DNA from: Deltaproteobacteria bacterium
GTDB lineage: Bacteria; JAUYMQ01
DNA length: 10,073 nt
Reading direction: 5' to 3'
Assembly: GCA_030698575.1 (NCBI GenBank)
Contig: JAUYMQ010000199.1
Coordinates: 1-10,073, forward strand
A program made the translations under genes and the position numbers. Of the stretch, positions 8,183 to 10,073 are shown in pieces; the first letter of the stretch is position 1; every line of letters starts with the position of its first letter. Under the pieces are notes generated by a model. That model worked only from the letters and a program-made list of their open reading frames with translations. It ran no database searches and was not told where the DNA came from.

Positions 8183-8578
8183 ATGAGCGAGCACCCGAAC
8201 GCAGCGCGCATCCGCGCGCTCTTTGCCGCCTTCCGCGAGGGTGACATCGCGACGATTCAGAATTCGCTCGCCGAGAACGCCGTGTGGCACTTCCCCGGGC
8301 GGGACGGCAAGCTCGCGGGCTTGCACGCGGGGCACGCGGGAATCTTCGCATTCCTGGCGCGAGTGCCGCAACTCACCGACGGCAGCTTTCATCTCGATCT
8401 CGAGGAGGTGCTCGCGAACGACACGCACGCGGTGGCGTTCTTTCGGGGGCACGGCGAGCGGGAGGGACGCAAGCTCGACAATCCGACCTGCCTCAAGATC
8501 CGGCTCGAGGGTGGCCGCGCCGTCGAGATCTGGGAGTTCGTCTGGGATCTGTACGCGGTCGACGCGTTCTGGTCCTAG
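8183..8578 (+). CDS. SnoaL-like / NTF2-fold protein
   Basis: The 131-residue protein has the size and pattern of a SnoaL-type NTF2-like domain: an N-terminal helix pair with ALFAAFREGDIATIQNSLAENAVWHFPGR (12-40), a middle helix GIFAFLARVPQLTDGSFHLDLEEVLA (53-78), and the strands AVAFFRGHGEREGRKLDNPTCLKIRLEGGRAVEIWEFVWDLYAVDAFW (83-130). NTF2-like proteins form a cone-shaped pocket and can be isomerases, cyclases, hydrolases or ligand-binding proteins; which one this is cannot be said. GGAGG (8170-8174) precedes ATG 8183 by 8 nt and overlaps the end of the preceding membrane protein gene, so coupled translation is likely. No export signal is seen. Confidence 0.82.
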   Translation: MSEHPNAARIRALFAAFREGDIATIQNSLAENAVWHFPGRDGKLAGLHAGHAGIFAFLARVPQLTDGSFHLDLEEVLANDTHAVAFFRGHGEREGRKLDNPTCLKIRLEGGRAVEIWEFVWDLYAVDAFWS

Positions 8579-8591
8579 CAAGGGATGGAGC

Positions 8592-8960
8592 ATGGCGACG
8601 GTGGTGACGGTCCTCTTCGTGGTCGCGGGGCTGATCAATCTGGTCCCGGTCGTGGGTGTGATCTCGGCGGGCCACATCGAGCGACTCTACGGCATCCGCA
8701 GCACGGACCGGAACCTCCTCGTGCTGCTACGGCACCGGGCTGTGCTTCTCGGACTGCTGGGAGCGTTCCTGATGCTTGCCGGCTTCTGCGCCTCGCTCCA
8801 GACCGTCGCGGGTGTGGCGGGGCTCGTGAGCATGGCCTCCTTCGTGATCCTCGCACCGCCTTCCGCGCCGCTCTCGGACGACATCAGGAAGGTCACCCGG
8901 GCGGACATCCTGGCTCTCGCGCTTCTCATCGCCGCGATGGCCATGAAGCCCTTCGCCTAG
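8592..8960 (+). CDS. Small four-helix membrane protein, unknown function
   Basis: The 122-residue protein has about four membrane helices: 4-25 (VVTVLFVVAGLINLVPVVGVIS), 49-68, 71-89 and 104-117. Between the first two lies HIERLYGIRSTDRNLLVLLRHRAVL, a conserved-looking cytoplasmic loop (the RHRAVLxGLLGxF motif). I recall this family from many bacterial genomes, sometimes labelled as phosphopantetheine adenylyltransferase; nothing in the sequence supports that label, since no nucleotidyltransferase HxGH motif or soluble Rossmann domain is present. AGGGA (8581-8585) sits 6 nt before ATG 8592, chosen because the first helix starts right after. It is 13 bp after the SnoaL gene and 7 bp before the cyclase gene, with which it may be co-expressed. 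Confidence 0.7.
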   Translation: MATVVTVLFVVAGLINLVPVVGVISAGHIERLYGIRSTDRNLLVLLRHRAVLLGLLGAFLMLAGFCASLQTVAGVAGLVSMASFVILAPPSAPLSDDIRKVTRADILALALLIAAMAMKPFA

Positions 8961-8967
8961 GCGCGCC

Positions 8968-10073
8968 ATGCCCCTCTCCATTGAAACCAAATACACGGAC
9001 AGCCGGATCGGACGCATCGGCTACCAGACGATCGGCGACGGCCCGTTCGATCTCGTCATGTCGCCCGACTGGACCAACTGCATGGAACTCATGTGGGAGG
9101 ATCCACGGTTCGAAAGCTACCTGCGCGAGCTGGCCTCCTTCAGTCGCCTCATTCTCTTCGATCACCGGGGCTGCGGCATCTCCGATCCTCCCCCTGTAAC
9201 CGCCGTATCCATGGGCCTGGCAGTGGAGGGCGGCGCCGAGGAGATCGAGGCGGTCATGGATGCGGTGGGTTCGGAACGGGCGTCCCTTCTGGGACTCAAC
9301 CTCGGAAGCTGGGCCATCATGCTCTTCGCGGCGACGGCGCCCCGCCGCGTGCGCTCGATGGTGCTGGTCGACACGAGTGCCCGCATCGCCGCGGCGCCCG
9401 ACTACCCCTTTGGCGCGACGCCCGAGCAGCTCACGCGGCTTGTGCAGTTCCTGAAGCGCACCCGGGGAACGGTAGAGGGTCTTCGCCTCAGCGATCCCAA
9501 GGCCGCCGGCGACCCTCAGTTCGCCCAGTGGTACGCCCGCTACGTGCGTCTCTCGATTTCACCCAGCTTGTTCGATGCTTGCTGGGACACCGTCGAGGAG
9601 GCCGATCTGCGTCCCGTGCTTCCGGCCATCACGGCGCCGACCCTCGTCATTGGTCACCGCGACAGCCGCGCCTATCCCGTGGAGACCGGCCGGTACATCG
9701 CCGAGCACATCCCCGGCGCCGCGTTCAGGGAGATGCCGGGCGGCGACGCGCTCTTCTTCAGGCGGAGTCCCAATCTCGCGCTGCAAGAGGTCCGGGAATT
9801 CCTCACGGGCGACCGGGCGGAGCCGGAGGTTGATCGCATCCTCGCCACCATCCTCTTCACCGACATCGTCGGCTCGACCGAGAAAGCGGCGGAGCTGGGC
9901 GATCGCGGCTGGGCCGAGCGGCTCGTGCGGCACCACGCGCTGGTGCGCCACGAGCTGGAGCGGTTTCGGGGCACCGAGGTCGACAACGCCGGCGATGGCT
10001 TCTTTGCCACCTTCGACGGGCCCGCGCGGGCCATCCGCTGCGCGATGGCCATCCGGAATAGCGTCGAGTCGAT
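8968..10073 (+). CDS. Alpha/beta-hydrolase-like domain fused to class III adenylate/guanylate cyclase (3' end outside window)
   Basis: The 368 visible residues start at ATG 8968, 7 bp after the membrane protein; no strong Shine-Dalgarno is seen. Residues about 5-285 are an alpha/beta-hydrolase fold: WEDPRFESYLRELASFSRLILFDHRGCGISD (43-73), LLGLNLGSWAIMLFAATAPRRV (107-128), PTLVIG (224-229) and VETGRYIAEHIPGA (238-251). The expected nucleophile serine is Asn111 (GLNLG) and the expected histidine Ala261 (GGDALFF), while Asp232 is present; the domain is probably a non-catalytic sensor. From 293 a class III cyclase domain begins: LFTDIVGST with metal-binding Asp299, and VDNAGDGFFATF with the second Asp343, so metal binding is intact. 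The position usually holding substrate-selecting Lys has Asp339. The product is likely a cyclic nucleotide made in response to a small ligand; the C-terminal part of the cyclase, including the transition-state Asn/Arg, lies beyond the window. Confidence 0.85.
   Translation, partial: MPLSIETKYTDSRIGRIGYQTIGDGPFDLVMSPDWTNCMELMWEDPRFESYLRELASFSRLILFDHRGCGISDPPPVTAVSMGLAVEGGAEEIEAVMDAVGSERASLLGLNLGSWAIMLFAATAPRRVRSMVLVDTSARIAAAPDYPFGATPEQLTRLVQFLKRTRGTVEGLRLSDPKAAGDPQFAQWYARYVRLSISPSLFDACWDTVEEADLRPVLPAITAPTLVIGHRDSRAYPVETGRYIAEHIPGAAFREMPGGDALFFRRSPNLALQEVREFLTGDRAEPEVDRILATILFTDIVGSTEKAAELGDRGWAERLVRHHALVRHELERFRGTEVDNAGDGFFATFDGPARAIRCAMAIRNSVES

Follow-up and report, generated by a model that had tools for sequence, protein, structure and literature searches.

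The stretch of DNA analysed here (the window, 10,073 nucleotides) is the entire contig C430 of a 4.13 Mb genome assembled in 653 contigs. The genomes searched included no other member of its phylum, and its lineage is probably poorly sampled. The last gene in the window encodes an alpha/beta hydrolase domain followed by a class III cyclase domain, as matches to Pfam Abhydrolase_1 and to 1ybt confirm for the original prediction, which had been made from the sequence alone. This gene (the query), its features and the two genes upstream are as follows.

8183..8578, + strand: SnoaL-like (NTF2 fold) protein (Pfam SnoaL_2, E 2.3e-16)
8592..8960, + strand: short hydrophobic protein without a Pfam match; stops 7 bases short of the cyclase gene
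8968..10071, + strand: hydrolase-cyclase gene, 368 codons inside the window, 3' end past the contig end
8968..9822, + strand: alpha/beta-hydrolase domain, residues 1-285 (Pfam Abhydrolase_1, E 4.1e-14, over the cut-off)
9292..9306, + strand: nucleophile elbow GLNLG, residues 109-113 (from sequence; strand then helix in the model)
9298..9300, + strand: Asn111 (AAC), nucleophile place; pairs with Ser of the KAI2-like 6atx; Ser in 94 of 131 family rows
9664..9666, + strand: Ser233, acid place; pairs with Asp of 6atx; Asp or Glu in 94 of 94 Ser111 rows
9748..9750, + strand: Ala261 (GCG), histidine place; pairs with His of 6atx; His in 93 of 94 Ser111 rows
9829..10073, + strand: class III cyclase domain, N-terminal part, residues 288-368 (phmmer to 1ybt)
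9862..9864, + strand: Asp299, first metal-binding Asp (FTDIVGS; sequence and alignment)
9994..9996, + strand: Asp343, second metal-binding Asp (AGDGF; sequence and alignment)

The three genes are closely packed on one strand, which makes an operon likely. The product of 8592..8960 is probably a membrane protein. A scan for promoters and terminators 5' of the query gene found nothing, and its neighbour genes, compared with those of the nearest homologue (L023), have nothing in common with them from which a ligand could be told. The start codon of the query is backed by alignment with the start of L023, which is full-length. At the other end, contig C445 of the same genome opens with 247 bases that make 81 codons in the frame and orientation needed to continue the query, and these codons share 74% identity with L023 residues 371-446. 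When the two contigs are joined end to end, the reading frame stays open for 450 codons (L023 has 449), with one residue absent at the seam relative to L023. The last 80 or so codons of the query are probably the start of C445, the join being likely by sequence but unproven.

The original prediction had proposed structure prediction and superposition as a check on the hydrolase half. An AlphaFold2 model of residues 1-292 (68-row alignment) has the complete hydrolase fold with high confidence (mean pLDDT 92.7, pTM 0.91). In the model, strand 105-110 runs into helix 113-123, the canonical strand-elbow-helix arrangement, strand 225-230 precedes the acid loop, and strand 252-256 precedes the place that once held the histidine. 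Of the solved structures, esterases come closest to the model, namely 5h3h (Z 30.9, rmsd 2.1 over 262) and the aryl esterase 1va4 (Z 30.6). The model also resembles signalling hydrolases, with Z 29.0 for RsbQ and Z 28-29 for KAI2/D14 proteins. A match to Pfam Ndr is weak and below the cut-off.

The catalytic residues are missing from this fold. The elbow GLNLG with Asn111 had been read correctly, as had Asp260-Ala261 (GAC GCG at 9745-9750) in place of the usual DH. The original prediction erred on the acid, which it took to remain as Asp232. That assignment is one residue out of register: the acid sits in column 233, where the query has Ser. Column 232 is Gly in most rows of the 131-row family alignment, and when the query is aligned separately with 6atx, a solved KAI2-like C sequence, D232 pairs with Lys. 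The number of lost triad residues is therefore three instead of two. Judged by these alignments, the query hydrolase domain is without all of them (Ser to Asn111, Asp to Ser233 and His to Ala261), and of the GxSxG nucleophile, the acid after strand 7 and the catalytic His that define a serine hydrolase, 0 of 3 are found. The histidines that remain in the domain are 66, 230 and 247. The core of the original prediction, a triad-dead yet folded hydrolase module before a cyclase, is backed by the alignment, the tree and the confident model, and is stronger than first thought because the acid is also lost.

The family alignment comprises the query and 130 homologues. The expectation that hydrolase-fused cyclases carry G-x-S-x-G holds for the 94 rows with Ser at column 111 but fails for the other 37, LipJ included. 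Since the Ser111 homologues have His261 and Asp/Glu233 almost without exception, most of the family looks catalytically competent by sequence. Among the 37 rows without Ser111, the His is kept in 16 and the acid in 16. Ser111 is associated with the His (Fisher p 2e-13) and with the acid (1e-14), values that are descriptive since the sequences are related. Other positions are linked to an intact triad as well: in the 89 intact-triad rows, G34 is present in 84, K66 in 84, R89 in 86 and E112 in 88, and the query has D34, H66, G89 and L112. One scan of viral contigs gave a single homologue, with its triad intact.

The nearest homologue, L023, comes from a Candidatus Binatia metagenome assembly (genome G145) and is 55% identical to the query. 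Its elbow is GIGFG, and it has Ser233 and Gln261, so that the same three sites are altered but to other letters. Asn111 and Ala261, whose conservation the original prediction had suggested examining, are Gly111 and Gln261 in L023. Between the two hydrolase domains, codons are different at 38% of first, 29% of second and 61% of third positions. The excess at third positions indicates that amino-acid changes are selected against and that the domain is not decaying. The corresponding values for the cyclase codons are 19, 14 and 60%. At a cyclase identity of 70-76%, mean hydrolase identity is 0.45 in broken pairs and 0.56 in intact pairs. The quicker divergence of the broken domains is compatible with relaxed constraint as well as with diversification of their ligands.

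The start of the cyclase half is intact in the query. Its residues 288-365 align with the Rv1900c cyclase domain (1ybt) at E 2.2e-21, and the probable continuation on C445, whose join is unproven, has a Guanylate_cyc match over the cut-off and carries VHTASR, which corresponds to R399 of L023. A full-length model of L023 (pLDDT 91.1; pTM 0.67, so the domain orientation is unsure) has the same hydrolase fold together with a cyclase fold that matches 1ybu with Z 28.8 over 162 residues at 51% identity. In the clade of triad-less proteins to which the query belongs (described below), all 27 rows have the two Asp residues that bind metal, and the transition-state Arg is kept in 26 of 26. These results indicate that the cyclase was retained while the chemistry of the hydrolase was dropped. 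The clade also has residues of its own, W89 in 24 of 27 rows (the query itself has G89) and H247 in 23 of 27, a pattern expected of a new role.

LipJ was examined through the NCBIfam model NF058673, named by NCBI 'bifunctional lipase/adenylate cyclase LipJ', which has a cut-off of 800 bits. The equivalogs, 32 in number, came from genomes of one mycobacterial genus and from three reference genomes, and nearly all were over the cut-off, at 824-866 bits. None of the 32 has an intact triad. Their elbows are FAPGFTT-like and lack GxSxG, column 233 carries no acid, and column 261 holds Ala, Thr, Val or Ser. The cut-short query (307 bits) and the full-length L023 (431 bits) score below the cut-off, but both share the LipJ layout of a hydrolase followed by a cyclase, with the triad absent.

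Trees were built with the triad columns removed. In a 130-row tree, the query falls within a 27-row clade that includes LipJ and in which every triad is broken (SH-aLRT 85), and at least nine switches between intact and broken states are required. A more careful 68-row tree, whose bootstrap is not fully settled, has a matching 21-row clade (96/89) and at least eight switches, and pairs the query with L023 at 100/97. Five mycobacterial DD-type rows (represented by L160-L162) lie outside the triad-less clade in a quick tree of a reduced set and inside it in the careful tree. Ser-His-Asp is the ancestral state of hydrolases. Because of this, loss is the natural direction and the switches are most naturally read as triad losses, the parsimony counts themselves giving no direction. 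Triad loss, as traced in these alignments and trees, is recurrent in the hydrolase-cyclase family, LipJ equivalogs included. An intact counterpart is present in the source genome itself: a paralogue on contig C309 (L002), 46% identical to the query, has the elbow GVSEGG and retains the acid and the DH.

Several relatives differ in other ways. In L113, L159, L161 and L162 the nucleophile place is taken by Asp, the residue that dehalogenases and epoxide hydrolases have there; L113 retains the His too, and changed chemistry is possible in it. L113 is a second triad-less hydrolase-cyclase in the genome of L023, and both genes lie in a region of contig C48 of G145 (18645-39888) with five class III cyclase-domain genes in about 21 kb. 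Weak acyl-CoA thioesterase (4HBT) matches fused to a class III cyclase are found at L023:6119-7636 and on contig C219 of G000 (L104:1474-3057, - strand); one copy of these 4HBT-like fusions is in the source genome and another is about 770 bases from the L023 gene. On Sinorhizobium and Paraburkholderia plasmids (L020, L022), a like hydrolase domain is part of longer proteins whose N-terminal part appears SARP/BTAD-like by eye. A Phyllobacterium plasmid protein (L021) has Ala at the nucleophile place, and Arg and Glu in place of the cyclase metal residues.

We favor the view, with a probability of roughly 0.58, that the query is a LipJ-type fusion in which a triad-less, esterase-derived hydrolase domain acts as a small-molecule receptor controlling cyclase output. 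The binding of a ligand, its chemistry and its coupling to the cyclase are steps that we infer. A small ester-, lactone- or acyl-like ligand would occupy the former active-site cavity, the resulting change would reach the class III cyclase dimer via a linker at about residues 282-290, and cyclic-nucleotide output would shift on binding.

Several known systems can be compared with the query. LipJ (Rv1900c) matches it along the entire length in having a hydrolase and then a cyclase domain, has lost the triad at the same three places and belongs to the same clade; unlike the query, it has other triad replacements and is reported as an esterase, and the query is below the equivalog cut-off. Intact fusions such as L002 share the architecture but have the GVSEGG elbow, the acid and the DH. 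The precedent for the proposed scheme is the plant gibberellin receptor GID1, considered to descend from an active lipase that lost its His and its enzyme activity (PMC3531792), a hydrolase fold turned receptor as proposed for the query. However, GID1 retains Ser and Asp, belongs to the plant hormone-sensitive-lipase group, signals through DELLA and has no fused cyclase. RsbQ, KAI2 and D14 share the fold of the query model and have signalling roles, but all three triad residues are present in the KAI2-like 6atx, and DAD2/D14 is described as having and needing all of them (PMC3531792). The NDRG family has a non-enzymatic hydrolase fold in which all triad residues are substituted, as in the query, but consists of animal and plant proteins without a cyclase (PMC7022630).

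NDRG proteins are also the model for the main alternative, in which the triad-less domain serves as a scaffold that binds a protein or holds the dimer together, and not as a small-molecule receptor. In NDRG3, the same fold with all three triad residues substituted has a sterically blocked site (PMC7022630), and the query does match Pfam Ndr, if weakly. The replacements also differ between the query (N/S/A) and L023 (G/S/Q), so no common pocket chemistry is visible in the two closest relatives, which counts against a receptor and in favor of a scaffold. The lower hydrolase identity of broken pairs, in fitting relaxed constraint as well, likewise counts against a receptor. Since the solved structures nearest to the model are esterases with a pocket and receptors for ligands, we consider a scaffold improbable, though a good deal less so than the explanations that follow.

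The listing of LipJ (Rv1900c) among characterised esterases in a review (PMC10865251), although its close relatives are triad-less (32 of 32 equivalogs), counts against a pure receptor and raises the prospect that the query domain still hydrolyses via an unconventional site. Such a site might in principle draw on Ser114 or His66 near the elbow, but the activity reported for LipJ may reflect contamination or weak promiscuity, position 111 is without Ser, Cys or Asp and position 261 without His, and hydrolysis by the query seems quite unlikely. It is less plausible still that the substitutions are an assembly artefact, sequencing errors or early changes in a pseudogene, as might be feared for a gene at the end of a metagenome-assembled contig. 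No fewer than two bases must change to turn His into Ala, the reading frame is uninterrupted, and L023, from another genome, is changed at the same three places. Sequencing error and pseudogene were rejected on this last ground and on the constraint evident from the codon positions. The receptor remains our preferred reading of the query. Its extension to the whole triad-less clade is more tentative, and we would not give it even odds: the clade, LipJ included, may consist of ex-esterases that now do nothing but sense small molecules resembling esters or lactones, a bacterial counterpart of GID1 wired directly to cyclic-nucleotide synthesis, in which case the 'lipase' in the name of LipJ would be wrong.

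Hydrolase-cyclase fusions are widespread, and the role of their hydrolase half is unsettled. The query adds one more to the fusions already known, and the useful addition is the recurrent loss of the triad, including in LipJ equivalogs. The general picture that emerges is of a family split between a large set in which the triad is strictly kept and at least several triad-less lineages, one of them with LipJ, in which the cyclase is intact. The triad-less LipJ equivalogs put in question a product name that is propagated automatically. The query and its triad-intact paralogue in one genome constitute a natural pair, which makes the question of 'enzyme or receptor?' directly testable.
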